Assembly (NCBI RefSeq): GCF_027947535.2
Contig: NZ_JAAGKO020000035.1
Location: forward strand, 1-64,000
From: Streptantibioticus silvisoli
GTDB lineage: Bacteria > Actinomycetota > Actinomycetes > Streptomycetales > Streptomycetaceae
Direction of reading: 5' to 3'
Length of the DNA: 64,000 nucleotides
Shown: in pieces, positions 9,464-18,201 of the stretch
How positions within the stretch are numbered: position 1 is the first letter of the stretch
Layout of the letters: every line of letters starts with the position of its first letter
The notes under the pieces: model-generated
What the model was told of the DNA's origin: nothing
Seen by the model: only the letters and a program-made list of their open reading frames with translations
Database searches by the model: none
Translations under genes and position numbers: made by a program

Positions 9464-10191
9464 CCCACCCCCTCCCCGGGACAATAGAACAATCAACGGC
9501 CGCCCCTGCAAATCCGGCACACCCGAGACTCCCCGCACCACCTAGAGAACACCTCGAAAACCACTGGAGACAAACGGAACCCACACCCATCCACCGCCCT
9601 AAACCCCCTGACACGAAACCCGACCCACCGCGACGACAACGCGATCAACCGGAACTACGGGTCCCGCCCCCGGACCAGCCTCACCAGCACAACAGCAGCC
9701 CCCACCGAACACACCACCAGCCCCGGGCCGCTCAGCCCCCTACTCCGCCGCCCTGCCACCGCAGCCCTCCCGCGCGTCACCGCAGGCCGCCCCGGCAGCG
9801 GGCGGCCGAGCGCGCCGCCCTGGAGAACCCCAGCGGCAGAAGAACGCCCGTTGCCCGGCCAGACAGGTACCTCAACCCCCCAGTGGGAACCCACGGCAGC
9901 TCCGTCCCGAGGCGGACACACCGCCTGGGCAGCCGGAATGGGCGAACGGGGCACCCGCCGGAGCAGGGACGGCCACAACAGTGGCGTGCGGTACGCCCGC
10001 TGGGGCTGAGGGCGTTCGGGACGCACTCCGGAACGGGCCGGGAACACTCCGGAGCGGAGTGCGGGCCGGTTTCCGGGAGGCGGCCGAAAAGCGCCGTCGT
10101 CCGGTATGACTAATACCGGGCCGGTTTGCGGAGTGGTTCCGATGAGCAGATCGGGTGCGCCAAGTCGTACGCGCAGCCGAGGAGTTCGTCC
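9464..10191. other. 728-bp stretch without a gene
   Basis: C-rich sequence between the ketosynthase remnant and the oxygenase gene. Open frames on both strands encode Arg/Pro-rich peptides with no recognisable family. A promoter for the downstream oxygenase is expected in the last 150 bp; GTATGACTAATACC at about 10103-10116 is locally AT-richer and could include it. Confidence 0.35.
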
Positions 10192-11715
10192 ATGGACCGC
10201 ACCGTTCCCGCCGACTCCCCCGTACCGGCCCCGCGCGGACCCGCCCCGGACGCACACGGACCCCGTCCGGACACACCGGGCTCCCCCGGCCGACCGGAAC
10301 CAGGCCCCGGCGACGTCTCGTTCCGGCGGGCACTGGGCGAATGGCGCATCGGGCTGGTCGCCTGGCGGCTGCTGGTCCTCCAGGCGGCGCATCCGCACGT
10401 CTCCGCCGGCATGGAGAAGCAGTCCACCTACCGCGGACACCCCTGGCGGCGGATCGAGCACACCCTCGGCAGCGGGCGACGGCTGTTCCACTCCGACGCC
10501 GACACCCTGCGCCGCGAGATCGCCCGGCTGGAGCGCGCGCACCGGCGCATCGAGGGCACCGACGAGCAGGGGCGCGGCTACTCGGCGTTGGATCCGGCCA
10601 CCCGGGTGTGGGTCATGGTCACCCTCTACGAATGCGTCACCGCCGTCGGGGAGTTGTCGGGCGACCCCTACAGCACGGCCGAACTCGACGCGCTCTACCG
10701 GGAGTTCCACGAGGTCGTGCTCGCGTTCGGGCTGCCGGACTCGTTGGTGCCCGCGACCGCCGCCGACGTGCCGGCGTATGTCGAGCGGACGGTGGCGGAA
10801 ACCCTGGAGCACGGCACGGCGGCCCGCTACCTCCTGCACGGCATCCTGCGCGAGGCGCCGTGCCCGCGCCGGCTGCGCCCGGTCCGCCTGCTGTGGCCAC
10901 TGCTGCGGCTGGTGGTAGCCCGCATCCTGGCCGACCTCACCCTCGCCGACCTGCCCGCCTCCTACCGCACTCGCTTCGCACTGCGCCGCACCCGCCGCGC
11001 CGCACTGCTGTCCTGGGTCATGCACCACGGCGCCCGCGCGCTGGTGACCCGGCTGCCGGACCGTATGCGCTACCGCGCGCACACCGCCCCGGGCGACCCG
11101 GCCACCGCCACGGAAGCGGCAACGGCACCGGCCACAGTGATCCCGGGCCAGCAACGGACCGCAGGGCGACGCCGGCAGCGGGACGCGCGGCGGCCCAGGC
11201 TCGACACGTTCTTCCGCCAGGTGCTGGACCAGACCGGCGACGGCTTCGTCGACGCCGAGGACCTGCGGGCGATGGCACACAACGTCTGCTGGCAACTCGA
11301 ACTCGACGACGCCGGGGAAGCGTCGGTCCACGCCGCGTTCTCCGCCTGGTGGGAGCAGATCCGCACCACCATGGACACCGACGGCGACGGACGGGTCGAC
11401 CGCACGGAGTTCATCACCGCCACGATGGCCGGCTGCGACCACGACCCCGACTATCTGAACCGCGGCCCACGGCTGGCCGCGCAAGCCGTCTTCGACGCCG
11501 CGGACACCGACGGGGACGGCCACCTCGACGCCGCCGAGTACACCGTCATGTTCGGCACCCGGGTCCACCCGGCGGAACTCGCCCACGGATTCCGCCAACT
11601 GGACGGCGACGGAGACGGCCGCATCACTCGCGAGGAATTCCTGAACGGCTTCACCGACTTCTTCACCGCCCGCTCCAACTCGGCAGCCGGCCACCAACTC
11701 CTCGGCCGCGCCTGA
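10192..11715 (+). CDS. MpaB/DUF2236-family oxygenase fused to four C-terminal EF-hands
   Basis: A 507-residue protein with two parts. Residues about 40-290 match the MpaB'/rubber-oxygenase-type catalytic domain (DUF2236): LVAWRLLVLQAAHPHVSAGM, then TRVWVMVTLYECVTAV, with the His residues used for haem in characterised members. After a basic linker, residues about 335-505 hold four EF-hand loops: DQTGDGFVDAED, DTDGDGRVDRTE, DTDGDGHLDAAE and DGDGDGRITREE, arranged like calerythrin/calmodulin-type pairs. Start ATG 10192 has GAGGAG upstream. DUF2236 proteins in actinomycetes are usually single-domain, so fusion to a calcium sensor suggests calcium-gated oxygenase activity. No signal peptide is seen; the substrate is unknown. 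Confidence 0.82.
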   Translation: MDRTVPADSPVPAPRGPAPDAHGPRPDTPGSPGRPEPGPGDVSFRRALGEWRIGLVAWRLLVLQAAHPHVSAGMEKQSTYRGHPWRRIEHTLGSGRRLFHSDADTLRREIARLERAHRRIEGTDEQGRGYSALDPATRVWVMVTLYECVTAVGELSGDPYSTAELDALYREFHEVVLAFGLPDSLVPATAADVPAYVERTVAETLEHGTAARYLLHGILREAPCPRRLRPVRLLWPLLRLVVARILADLTLADLPASYRTRFALRRTRRAALLSWVMHHGARALVTRLPDRMRYRAHTAPGDPATATEAATAPATVIPGQQRTAGRRRQRDARRPRLDTFFRQVLDQTGDGFVDAEDLRAMAHNVCWQLELDDAGEASVHAAFSAWWEQIRTTMDTDGDGRVDRTEFITATMAGCDHDPDYLNRGPRLAAQAVFDAADTDGDGHLDAAEYTVMFGTRVHPAELAHGFRQLDGDGDGRITREEFLNGFTDFFTARSNSAAGHQLLGRA

Positions 11716-11732: not shown

Positions 11733-11852
11733 ACGGAGCACGCACCGACAGAACAGCCGCGAACGGAGCACTCACGCTCGGAACACTCCCGCACGGAGCA
11801 CTCACGCACAGAACACTCCCGCACGGAACACTCCCGCACGGAGCGCGAATAC
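11733..11852. repeat. Tandem array of eight 15-bp units
   Basis: Eight head-to-tail 15-bp units with consensus ACGGAACACTCCCGC. The first two and the last are degenerate and the five in the middle are nearly identical. The array lies 17 bp after the stop of the oxygenase gene and 185 bp before the chitinase start. The unit length is a multiple of three, and one forward frame reads TEHSR repeatedly, but that frame has no start with a ribosome-binding site and overlaps the oxygenase in another frame, so I treat the array as non-coding. Confidence 0.85.
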
Positions 11853-14027: not shown

Positions 14028-15005
14028 TCACACCACCGCCGCGTCCGCGACGGAGCGGTAGTCGCTCGGCGAGGCGCCATAGGCGGCGCGAAAGGCCCGG
14101 GTGAAGGTGGGGTGGTCCTTGAAGCCCCAGCGTGCCGCGATCTGGTGGACGGGCACGTCGCGCAGCGCCTGATCGGCGAGGTCCCGGCGCGCGCGTTCGA
14201 GGCGCTGGTGGCGGATCCAGGCCGCGACGGTGGTGTCGCGCGCCGCGAAGAGGCGGTGCAGGTAGCTCAGCGAGATGTGGTGAGCGGCGGCAACGGTTCC
14301 CGGCGTCAGGCGGGGGTCGGGCAGTTGCTGCTGGATGAAGGTCTCGATCCGCATCAGCAGCGTGCGCCGGCGTGAGTCGTCCGGCACCGTGCCCTCGGCG
14401 TCGAGGTGATGGGCCACCACGGCGGTCATCAGGTCGCGGGCCACGGTACCGACCCGGGGAAGATCGGTCGGGCGGTAGTCGGCCGAGCACGTGGTCGTAC
14501 TGGTGAGGAACTGCCTCAGCAGTCCGCCGACACCCGTGGCCCCGGGCAGGGACCTCCCCAGCAGCCGCTCGATCCTGCCGACCGGCACTCCCAGGAACTC
14601 GCGGGGTAGGTGTGCGCGCACCATCGTCACCGGCCCGGCACCCGTGCCGAATCCCAGCCGGAAGGGCGTCGAGCTGTCGTACATCGCGAATTCCTGGCCG
14701 GTCAGCACGGTCTCCCGCCCCGCCTGACTGACCATGATGTCTCCGCTGAGGGCCGTGATGACGCAGAGCAGCTCCGGATCGTGCTGCCGGATCAGCCTGG
14801 GTGTCCGCACGACCTCGGAGGGAGAGCACGTCAGCTCCACCACGTCGACCTCGGCGAGATCCAGCATCCGCGCCGTCGCCAGGAACTCGTCGGGCTCCGC
14901 GCTGACGACCCGCATCGGGTGCTCGCTGTTGACGAAGATCTCGTTCAACGAACTCAGCCGATCCTGCGCCGGCAGATCCTCGGCGCGGAATACCACCTGC
15001 ATCAT
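14028..15005 (-). CDS. AraC-family transcriptional regulator
   Basis: A 325-residue regulator. Residues about 10-180 form an AraC-binding-like sensor domain of the FeaR/AraC_binding_2 type (DIMVSQAGRETVLTGQEFA, YDSSTPFRLGFG). The C-terminal 100 residues are the double helix-turn-helix (GTVAAAHHISLSYLHRLFAA, IRHQRLERARRDLAD, IAARWGFKDHPTFTRAFRAA). The start is ATG 15005 with CAGGGGGG upstream; a second ATG follows directly. It diverges from the hydrophobin-like gene at 15475 across a 469-bp gap and may regulate it. The effector is unknown. Confidence 0.92.
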   Translation of the reverse strand: MMQVVFRAEDLPAQDRLSSLNEIFVNSEHPMRVVSAEPDEFLATARMLDLAEVDVVELTCSPSEVVRTPRLIRQHDPELLCVITALSGDIMVSQAGRETVLTGQEFAMYDSSTPFRLGFGTGAGPVTMVRAHLPREFLGVPVGRIERLLGRSLPGATGVGGLLRQFLTSTTTCSADYRPTDLPRVGTVARDLMTAVVAHHLDAEGTVPDDSRRRTLLMRIETFIQQQLPDPRLTPGTVAAAHHISLSYLHRLFAARDTTVAAWIRHQRLERARRDLADQALRDVPVHQIAARWGFKDHPTFTRAFRAAYGASPSDYRSVADAAVV

Positions 15006-15474
15006 GCACCCCCCTGTCTTCAGCGTAACTGTTGTGATGGCTCCGGACTTCGTGCCTTCGCCCCATGGGCCCGCCCCGGACCGCAGCCGCGCACCGTGGC
15101 AGGCAGGGGTGGCGCCTCGCCTGCGCGCACCGGGCCACCGCGGCGCGAACCGGACGTCGGCCCGGCCGCCAGGGCACCGTCGGAACCCGGTACGCAACCG
15201 GGTTCTGTCCAGCGGACACCCGCCGACCGAGCCCGGCGGTCCTCCCCACCGGCGGCCGGCGCAACGACGTCACCCGGGTGATGCGGCAGGCACGACGGGT
15301 GCGGGGTGCGGGCGGTCGGAGGACAAGGGGGAGGAGTCCCAAGCGGCGGCCCCGCACTGCCTCCGCCGACCGGTACGGGCAGCACGGGCCGTGCTCCCCC
15401 CACCCCGGTGAACGTGTTCGCCCGCGTGGGCGACGCCGGGTATCCGGCGGCGGTCGACGGGCGAGGATCACCGC
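15006..15474. other. Divergent intergenic region, nothing recognised
   Basis: A 469-bp region between the AraC-type regulator and the hydrophobin-like gene. The first 40 bp next to the regulator are AT-richer (CAGCGTAACTGTTGTGATGG) and probably hold its promoter. No gene, RNA or clear operator was found in the rest. Confidence 0.4.
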
Positions 15475-15876
15475 ATGATCACTTCTTCCGTATACCGGCG
15501 CGTTGCCGCCGCTGTCGGGGCCGGCCTGCTGTCGACCATGGGGCTGGCCGTCTCCGCCGCGCCCGCGCACGCCACGCCCGCCGCCGCGCGCCCGGCCGCC
15601 GCGCCGGCCGGTCAAAACCTGTGCTGTCTGTCCACGGAGAGCCAGGACAAGCTCGACCCCGCCACCGCCGCCCTGCTGAAGGTCGAAGGCGTGTCGGCCT
15701 CGGCCTATCCGGGCAGTGTCGGCCTCGGTTGCCGTCCCCTCAGCCTGGTACCGATCGCGGATGGCAGCAGCTGCGGCAGCCAGCCGGTGGTGTGCGGCCG
15801 GTTCGACGGACTCGTGGCCCTGGGCTGTACCCCGGCGAGCCTCTCCCCGACGGCGGCGGAGAGCCGCCCCAGCTGA
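15475..15876 (+). CDS. Small secreted protein with a class I hydrophobin-like cysteine pattern
   Basis: A 133-residue protein. Residues 1-33 are a signal peptide (VYRR basic region, AAAVGAGLLSTMGLAVSA core, AHA cleavage). The mature part has six Cys: 50, 51, 86, 100, 107 and 118. Spacing fits fungal class I hydrophobins: CC, 34 residues, C4, 13 residues, C5, then 5 residues to position 106 (Val, where C6 is expected), C7 at 107, 10 residues, C8. Flanking residues also match (GLGCRPLSLV; QPVVCGRFDGLVALGCTP). The two missing Cys, C1 and C6, are disulfide partners in fungal proteins. A surface-active secreted protein is inferred. Start ATG 15475 has GAGGA upstream. A strong hairpin follows at 15905. 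Confidence 0.8.
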   Translation: MITSSVYRRVAAAVGAGLLSTMGLAVSAAPAHATPAAARPAAAPAGQNLCCLSTESQDKLDPATAALLKVEGVSASAYPGSVGLGCRPLSLVPIADGSSCGSQPVVCGRFDGLVALGCTPASLSPTAAESRPS

Positions 15877-16242: not shown

Positions 16243-17976
16243 TCAGTCCGTCTCGCCCGGGCTGCGCAGCATCTCCTTGACCTTGGCGATGGCGAAGCCC
16301 CAGCCCTGCTCGACCGTGGGCTTCGCGGGGACGGCGATCTCCTCGGGGTTGGTCAGTACGTCCAGCAGAACCGGGCCCGGCGTGGAGAAAGCCCTGTTCA
16401 CACCATCGATCAGCTCGCCGGAATGGGTGACCCGGATACCCGTGATGCCCAGGGCCGTGGCGACGGCGGCGAAGTCCGGGTTGTCGAGTTCGGTGCCGAA
16501 CTCGGGCAGTCCGACCTGCTCCTGCTCCAGCTTCACCATGCCCAGGCGCCGGTTGTCGAAGACGATGATCTTCACCGGCAGCCGGTGGGTGCGGATGGTG
16601 ATCAGATCGCCGAGCAGCATGCTCAGACCGCCGTCGCCGCAGAACGCCACCACCTGCCGGTCCCGGTCGAGGAACTGCGCACCGAGCGCCTGCGGCATGG
16701 CGTTGGCCATCGATCCCAGGTTGTAGGAACCCATCAGCCGGCGTTTCCCGTGCATCCGCACGAACCGGGAGAGCCACACCGTCGCCATCCCGGTGTCCGA
16801 GGTGAACACCGCGTCGTCGGCCGCCACTTCGTTGATCGCCAGAGCGAGTGCCTCGGGGCGTACCAGGTGTTCACGGTTGTCCAGTGCCGAGCGCACCTTG
16901 CCGACCAGCCCCCGGTCGTGGTCCGGGGCGGCCAGCCTGTGCTGCGCCTTCTGCCAGGTGGCGAAGCGTTCGCGGGCGCCGTCGAGGTGGGAGCGGTCCT
17001 CGCTCGGCTCGACCCGGTCCATCAGGGCGCGCAACGTGGGGCCGACGTCCGCGGTGAGCGCCACGTCGACCGGTACCCGGCGGCCGATGTGCTCGGCGAC
17101 GGTGTCGACCTGCACCACCTTCTTGCCGTCCGGATACCAGTCCCGGTAGGGGAAGTCGGTCCCCAGCAGTACCAGCGCGTCCGCGTGGTCCATCGCCCAG
17201 GCGGCGGCCGGATTGCCGATCAGACCGGTCTGGCCCACCTCGAACGGGTTGTCGCCCTCGAAGCCCTCCTTGGCCTTCAGCGTCAGCACCATCGGCGCCC
17301 CGAGCCGTTCCGCCAGCGCCAGGGTCTCCGTACGCGCTCCCCGCGCGCCCCTGCCGACCAGCAGGGTGACCCGGTCGGCGGAGTTGATCAGCTCGGCGGC
17401 CTCGTCCAGGGCCGGGTCGTCGGGCCGGCTGCTGGGCCGGGTCAGCGACAGCCGGGCCGGGCGGTCGTCGGGCACCTCCTGGTCGCCGACGTCGCCCGGC
17501 ACGGTCAGCACGGCCACCCCGCCGCGCCCGATCGCGCTGCGTACGGCGATCTCCAGGAGGCCGGGCAGCTGCGCCGGTGAGGTGATGGTGGCGCGGAAGA
17601 CGGCGACGTCGCGGAAGAGCAGGTCGTTGTCGACCTCCTGGAAGTAGTCGGTGCCGACGTCGGCGAGCGGTACCTGCCCGGCGATCGCCAGGACCGGGGT
17701 CCCGCTCTTGGCGGCGTCGTAGAGGCCGTTCAGCAGGTGGATCGAACCGGGGCCGACGGTGCCCATGCAGACCCCGATCGTGCCGCTGAGCTGCGACTGC
17801 GCACCGGCGGCGAAAGCTGCCGCCTCCTCGTGCCGGCAGCCCACCCACTCGACCGTCTCCGCCCGGCGGATGGCGTCGGTGAAGGGGTTGAGCGCGTCGC
17901 CGACCACGCCGAAGACATGCTTCACCTGAAGCTCTTCCAGCGCGTCGACGATCACTTGGGCGACGGTACGGGCCAT
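16243..17976 (-). CDS. poxB: Pyruvate oxidase/dehydrogenase (thiamine-diphosphate, quinone-type)
   Basis: A 577-residue TPP enzyme of PoxB length (about 572-580). The N-terminal Pyr domain carries the cofactor-activating Glu in GCRHEEAAAFAAGA. The central domain (about 185-330) is the FAD-binding type seen in pyruvate oxidases. The C-terminal PP domain shows the TPP motif starting CGDGGLSMLLGD and ending FDNRR. It decarboxylates pyruvate to acetate and CO2, passing electrons to quinone at the membrane in PoxB. GGAGG precedes ATG 17976. It lies downstream of the NRPS operon on the same strand with a 256-bp gap and a possible terminator, so it is probably a separate housekeeping unit. A related acetolactate-synthase-like activity cannot be excluded. 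Confidence 0.88.
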   Translation of the reverse strand: MARTVAQVIVDALEELQVKHVFGVVGDALNPFTDAIRRAETVEWVGCRHEEAAAFAAGAQSQLSGTIGVCMGTVGPGSIHLLNGLYDAAKSGTPVLAIAGQVPLADVGTDYFQEVDNDLLFRDVAVFRATITSPAQLPGLLEIAVRSAIGRGGVAVLTVPGDVGDQEVPDDRPARLSLTRPSSRPDDPALDEAAELINSADRVTLLVGRGARGARTETLALAERLGAPMVLTLKAKEGFEGDNPFEVGQTGLIGNPAAAWAMDHADALVLLGTDFPYRDWYPDGKKVVQVDTVAEHIGRRVPVDVALTADVGPTLRALMDRVEPSEDRSHLDGARERFATWQKAQHRLAAPDHDRGLVGKVRSALDNREHLVRPEALALAINEVAADDAVFTSDTGMATVWLSRFVRMHGKRRLMGSYNLGSMANAMPQALGAQFLDRDRQVVAFCGDGGLSMLLGDLITIRTHRLPVKIIVFDNRRLGMVKLEQEQVGLPEFGTELDNPDFAAVATALGITGIRVTHSGELIDGVNRAFSTPGPVLLDVLTNPEEIAVPAKPTVEQGWGFAIAKVKEMLRSPGETD

Positions 17977-18201
17977 CAACTGCCTCCGATACTTGAACGG
18001 TCGAGCGGCCTGTCCGGTACGGCAGCCGGGCGACTCCCGCGCTGACCTCCACCGGATCACCACCGGTACGCGCCTGCCCGGGTTTGCCGGCTTGATGTGG
18101 CTCCCGTCCTGATCGGGTTCCCGGACACCGGCGTGAGCGCTGCGCACTCCTACCATGCCGGTGGTGCGGCGGTGGCGCAGCGTCGTCACGGGCCGGGGAG
18201 A

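Follow-up and report, generated by a model that had tools for sequence, protein, structure and literature searches.

The locus

The window analysed here, a stretch of 64,000 nucleotides at the start of a 94.6 kb contig of Streptantibioticus silvisoli, carries a gene for a small cysteine-rich protein that stands alone between a divergently transcribed gene for an AraC-family regulator and a convergent gene for a thiamine pyrophosphate (TPP)-dependent enzyme, with no hydrolase operon around it (Table 1). The reading frame has the base composition of a coding sequence, with G+C fractions of 0.69/0.66/0.87 by codon position, and the protein's N-terminus, read by eye, has typical n-, h- and c-regions; neither a sigma-70-like promoter nor a terminator was seen near the gene. 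A profile search of the S. silvisoli genome finds one copy of the domain that this gene encodes.

Several features of the window lie farther away. Upstream there is a gene for a GH18/CBM4_9 protein, preceded by a tandem array with a 15/30-bp unit (11733-11842), and about 4 kb from the hydrophobin gene an MPAB/latex-clearing-protein oxygenase domain (PF09995) is joined to EF-hand repeats (10126-11715, plus strand), an uncommon-looking combination. On the other side, genes for an AMP-binding enzyme, a condensation/carrier protein and a P450 (21796-26999, minus strand) probably belong to a non-ribosomal peptide cluster.

Table 1. Features of the hydrophobin-homologue locus (window coordinates) and of three hydrolase operons in related genomes (coordinates of the locus named)
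Feature	Position	Strand	Basis or remark
AraC-family regulator, divergent; candidate regulator only	14028..15197	-	PF12833, PF14525
GAGG, Shine-Dalgarno-like	15463..15466	+	8 nt before ATG; inferred by reading the sequence
Six-cysteine hydrophobin homologue, coding sequence	15475..15876	+	133 aa, single exon, ATG to TGA
Putative Sec signal peptide, residues 1-33, ending AHA/T	15475..15573	+	by eye: Arg-Arg, hydrophobic stretch, A-x-A
Ala43 codon, at SC16 Cys1 position	15601..15603	+	spacing in SC16 alignment; 7 residues before C2
Hydrophobin domain, residues 46-120	15610..15834	+	PF01185 positions 4-78 of 79
Cys50-Cys51 (C2C3)	15622..15627	+	alignment
Cys86 (C4), expected partner C3	15730..15732	+	alignment; pairing inferred from RodA
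Cys100 (C5), expected partner C2	15772..15774	+	alignment; pairing inferred
Val106 codon, at Cys6 position	15790..15792	+	SC16 alignment
Cys107 (C7), expected partner C8	15793..15795	+	alignment; pairing inferred
Cys118 (C8)	15826..15828	+	alignment
TPP-dependent enzyme, convergent; bacterial context	16243..18189	-	PF02775/PF02776/PF00205
Hydrophobin-PL3-GH12, same direction	L016 9747-11813	+	
Hydrophobin-PL3-GH12, same direction	L017 9639-11710	+	
Hydrophobin-PL3-GH12, same direction	L018 9645-11740	-	reverse-complement coordinates

Homology to hydrophobins

An initial annotation, made from the sequence alone, had seen in this protein the cysteine pattern of a class I hydrophobin, and profile, pairwise sequence and predicted fold now agree on that likeness, pointing in particular to the basidiomycete proteins; a resemblance confined to the cysteine spacing, which would have refuted the annotation, is not what they give. 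In Pfam, the protein matches the Hydrophobin family, PF01185, with an E-value of 3.8e-12 and a score of 47.1 bits against a curated cut-off of 23 bits; at E-values up to 10 no other Pfam family is matched, and NCBIfam holds nothing that matches meaningfully. A sequence search of solved structures ranks SC16 of Schizophyllum commune first (E 2e-11), and a profile built from eight bacterial members finds SC16 at 1.2e-12, followed by the hydrophobins of Phanerochaete (2.5e-9), Serpula (3.4e-7) and Wallemia (3e-4). The ascomycete protein MPG1 appears at E 4 with this profile, and the significant matches among solved structures are all to basidiomycete class I proteins.

Is this more than a matter of cysteine spacing? 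A bacterial, cysteine-rich secreted protein might have reached a hydrophobin-like spacing by convergence, and such an origin would be compatible with the presence of six cysteines, not eight, and with the fact that we found no previously described bacterial members. When the cysteines are replaced by X or S, the Pfam match is lost; the X-masked protein, however, still finds SC16 at E 6e-4, and none of seven shuffles of the mature part in which the cysteines were held fixed matches PF01185. Because the match survives masking of the cysteines and the cysteine-preserving shuffles lose the Pfam match, the resemblance to hydrophobins extends beyond the spacing, and it includes two blocks conserved with hydrophobins, VGLxC-P and GLVxxGCxP. 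These results, the E-values of ∼1e-11 to 1e-12 for PF01185 and SC16, and the predicted fold all argue against convergence, which we consider highly improbable. By sequence comparison, then, the window protein is homologous to hydrophobins, beyond mere likeness of cysteine spacing.

The fold was predicted with AlphaFold2 from a shallow bacterial alignment, giving a model with a mean pLDDT of 62 and values of 70-80, or moderate confidence, over most of the domain. In the model, the C3-C4 interval contains a helix and the cysteines are surrounded by strands, and at this moderate confidence the whole forms the four-stranded β-barrel with loops that is expected of class I. In a Foldseek search, the top five matches are basidiomycete hydrophobins, with noise after them, and SC16 is found with an E-value of 2e-5 and a probability of 1.0. 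The model superposes on SC16 (VIA-align Z 10.6, rmsd 2.1 Å over 74 residues, 40% identity), the match spanning model residues 44-125, and the window protein is thus predicted to have a hydrophobin fold of a class IB-like kind.

A missing cysteine pair

The cysteines of the window protein lie at residues 50, 51, 86, 100, 107 and 118, exactly as spaced in the initial annotation: CC-x34-C-x13-C-x6-C-x10-C, with Val106 immediately before Cys107. The intervals of x34, x13, x6 and x10 align with those of SC16 and other hydrophobins and satisfy class I inter-cysteine spacing, whereas the eight cysteines and four disulfides that define a canonical class I hydrophobin are not all present. Since C1 and C6 are absent, we class the protein as a variant with six cysteines rather than a canonical hydrophobin.

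In RodA, as in every other hydrophobin that has been studied, the disulfides pair C1-C6, C2-C5, C3-C4 and C7-C8 (PMC7389560). The two absent cysteines are therefore bonded partners, as the initial annotation had noted, and the six that are left make up three complete pairs; by analogy with RodA, the window protein would have the disulfides C2-C5, C3-C4 and C7-C8. The same two cysteines are missing from all six other intact bacterial copies described below, and their absence may go back to one ancestral event common to all bacterial copies. The suggestion that the loss was concerted is not a strong argument, and we regard it as suggestive only, since two random losses among eight cysteines would strike bonded partners in 4/28 of cases. 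In RodA, removal of the single cysteine C5 is enough to prevent secretion and rodlet formation (PMC7389560), so a protein with three bridges may fold or assemble differently.

Distribution and condition of the bacterial copies

The systematic search for PF01185 was confined to Actinomycetota. Besides S. silvisoli, nine of the 393 Streptomyces genomes drawn (∼2%) carry the domain, among them Streptomyces mashuensis JCM 4059 and S. morookaense DSM 40503, and a draw of 395 genomes across the family Streptomycetaceae yielded 3 carriers. Among 396 genomes sampled across the phylum and 395 across the class, PF01185 was found only in S. silvisoli itself, and it was found in none of 14 control genomes. 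A contig search with the window protein alone gave no match, and one with an alignment recovered S. mashuensis and S. morookaense.

Six of the nine Streptomyces copies are intact (G806, G307, G293, G1022, G1030 and G849), and each of these exceeds the Pfam cut-off; the bacterial copies are mutually divergent, at about 30% identity, and the G293 homologue has a slightly negative GRAVY value. The other three copies are fragments or damaged. In G948, C7 is lost and no in-frame ATG or GTG precedes the domain; in G1014 the N-terminal half alone remains, and in G1057 the C-terminal half alone. The G1014 fragment (L010, minus strand, ∼1318-1611 in reverse-complement coordinates) has an extra upstream cysteine, in the arrangement GC-x11-HC, before it runs into a stop, and its source may be a transfer of its own in which C1 was retained; it is followed by an apparent IS5-type transposase, judged by eye. 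At the G1057 locus (L007, ∼1402-1614) there is a short, secreted-looking protein that retains, of a hydrophobin, just the C-terminal third (VTCQNNTTNGLVSIGCSPISVL).

With three of ten copies damaged, counting that of the window, the gene is dispensable. Might it, then, be a functionless relic of transfer that is heading for loss? The truncated or damaged copies, one of which is followed by what seems to be an insertion sequence, and the sporadic occurrence of the gene would fit such a history. In the window, however, the reading frame is intact, with a start codon, a Shine-Dalgarno-like element, a signal-like N-terminus and all six cysteines in place, and two closely related bacterial copies differ over 142 codons with dN 0.036 and dS 0.166 (dN/dS ∼0.22), so that purifying selection has acted between them. 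Moreover, three species have kept the gene in translational coupling to a pectate lyase gene. A relic is, in our estimation, improbable.

Origin of the gene

How did a hydrophobin gene come to be in a streptomycete? Fungal contamination is ruled out, as the gene is a single high-GC3 frame on its contig, between the AraC-family regulator and the TPP enzyme, and has relatives in nine other genomes. Searches for carriage of the gene by plasmids, phages or viruses found no match in plasmids, phages or IMG/VR.

The initial annotation had named inter-kingdom transfer and convergence as possible sources, and the profile, cysteine-masking, shuffle and fold evidence favours transfer. We favour, as the probable direction, a transfer from Basidiomycota to streptomycetes, because one bacterial family among those searched has the protein as against thousands of fungal members, and because the bacterial proteins most resemble a single fungal subgroup. 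A tree of the short domain, of the kind that the initial annotation had proposed, has 12 rows; it separates the bacterial rows from the others at weak support (63/78), is nearly unresolved elsewhere and is unrooted. The direction of transfer and the number of events are therefore judged from phylogenetic distribution and not from a rooted tree.

A transfer in the other direction, from bacteria to fungi, or an ancient family lost in most bacteria, would be in keeping with a tree that cannot be rooted and with the divergence of the bacterial copies. Against both histories, the only bacteria with the domain among those searched are Streptomycetaceae, with no match in the controls and no others in the phylum and class draws; fungal hydrophobins number >7,000 in a survey (PMC12375992); and the bacterial copies are nearest to class IB. 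We judge these two histories taken together to be very doubtful, and transfer from a fungus to a streptomycete remains our favoured reading.

Neighbourhoods and proposed function

In three of the relatives (G1022, G1030 and G849), the hydrophobin stop codon and the start codon of a gene for a PL3 pectate lyase lie within a shared 4 bp (ATGA), and a gene for a GH12 glycoside hydrolase follows 13-30 bp after the PL3 gene. The overlap suggests that hydrophobin and lyase are produced jointly, and the operon as a whole suggests a conditioning of plant surfaces. The arrangement is not universal; in G791 (L035), a PL3-GH12 pair has no hydrophobin gene in front of it.

Fungal hydrophobins that coat a polymer can recruit hydrolases to it, as has been described for RolA and CutL1 (PMC9394342) and for MPG1 and cutinase 2 (PMC4855151), and this makes hydrolase recruitment the simplest way to account for the bacterial operon; by analogy, the model might extend to the window protein. 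For that protein, we infer secretion, assembly, film formation and a biological role along the following lines. A streptomycete ancestor would have acquired a class IB (basidiomycete) hydrophobin gene from a fungus, and the bacterial lineage would have come to do without the C1-C6 disulfide while keeping C2-C5, C3-C4 and C7-C8, which would still frame a small β-barrel. The C7-C8 segment, GRFDGLVALG, would be the counterpart of the aggregation-prone loop of class I proteins. Once exported, the protein would most likely gather at interfaces between hydrophobic and hydrophilic phases and form an amphipathic film. Its likeliest use would be to condition the surface of a substrate that is insoluble or hydrophobic, giving hyphae and exported hydrolases a place to adhere and act, much as fungal RolA and MPG1 serve cutinases. 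Overall, it is likely that the window protein is a secreted, single-domain class IB homologue of fungal derivation, with three disulfides, that forms an interface film conditioning a substrate surface.

The main functional alternative, that a true hydrophobin homologue coats the aerial hyphae or spores of the organism itself, alongside the chaplins, starts from the facts that streptomycetes grow aerial hyphae and that fungal class I hydrophobins do just this in fungi (PMC3983194). The S. silvisoli genome encodes a full chaplin set, with 12 chaplin domains, so a hydrophobic coat is available for such a protein to join, perhaps on top of another function. However, the window shows no recognisable chaplin or developmental gene next to the hydrophobin gene, and in the neighbourhoods of the relatives, where a minority of the neighbours were searched for family membership, there is no shared developmental partner. 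The gene is also patchy, occurring in ∼2% of Streptomyces although nearly all raise aerial hyphae, and in three relatives it belongs to the operon with pectate lyase and GH12. A role in the aerial coat therefore seems unlikely to us, and substrate conditioning is the reading that we carry forward.

For the bacterial proteins as a group, we tentatively propose, at a little less than even confidence, that they are true hydrophobins captured from basidiomycetes, with a three-disulfide core, which spread in the Streptomycetaceae and in some species became translationally coupled to a PL3 pectate lyase and a GH12 glucanase, as a module that conditions the surface of plant material.

Implications

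Hydrophobins have been described as restricted to filamentous fungi (PMC3983194), and the bacterial entries in a 2025 structural survey are BslA and YweA only, which have another fold (PMC12375992). In the freely accessible literature that we searched, no bacterial PF01185 protein is reported; some of these proteins may already bear automatic tags in sequence databases. If there is indeed a homologous bacterial family, it would be a clear instance of a structural material protein passing from fungus to bacterium, and the two groups involved both grow as hyphae. It also poses a question that is directly testable: is a hydrophobin able to fold and to assemble when it has three disulfides rather than four? 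The production of fungal hydrophobins in bacteria is limited by disulfide formation, which makes the answer useful as well. And since streptomycetes are genetically tractable, the function of a hydrophobin could be compared in them with that of the chaplins.

Comparison with known systems

The Streptomyces chaplins (PF03777), which these filamentous bacteria secrete as surface-active coat proteins, are unrelated in sequence, and the window protein has no PF03777 match. BslA and YweA of Bacillus share with hydrophobins a name, 'bacterial hydrophobin', and an interfacial film; however, their fold is immunoglobulin-like (PMC12375992) and they are non-homologous, whereas the window protein is predicted to have the fold of fungal hydrophobins. 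In Pfam it does not match the BslA family, and its fold search returned hydrophobins.

The class IA proteins RolA/RodA of Aspergillus and MPG1 of Magnaporthe resemble the proposed mode of action, in that a surface film retains hydrolases (PMC9394342, PMC4855151). They belong to the ascomycete branch, which the bacterial profile barely matches, and their partners are cutinases, in contrast to the PL3 and GH12 enzymes of the bacteria. Closer in sequence and structure are the hydrophobins of Phanerochaete carnosa (6e98), Serpula lacrymans (5w0y) and Wallemia (6e9m), which match the bacterial copies in both profile and fold; they differ from the window protein in having eight cysteines, and their identity to it is below that of SC16.

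SC16 itself (class IB; PDB 2nbh, 7s7s, 7s86) shares with the window protein its domain, its inter-cysteine spacing, the C3-C4 helix and the VGLxC-PLS and GLVxxGCTP blocks, with 36-40% identity over the aligned core. It differs in having all eight cysteines, where the window protein has Ala43 and Val106 at C1 and C6, and in its fungal as opposed to bacterial host. Among solved structures, profile and fold searches alike thus place the window protein closest to basidiomycete members, and it is this that assigns it to class IB.
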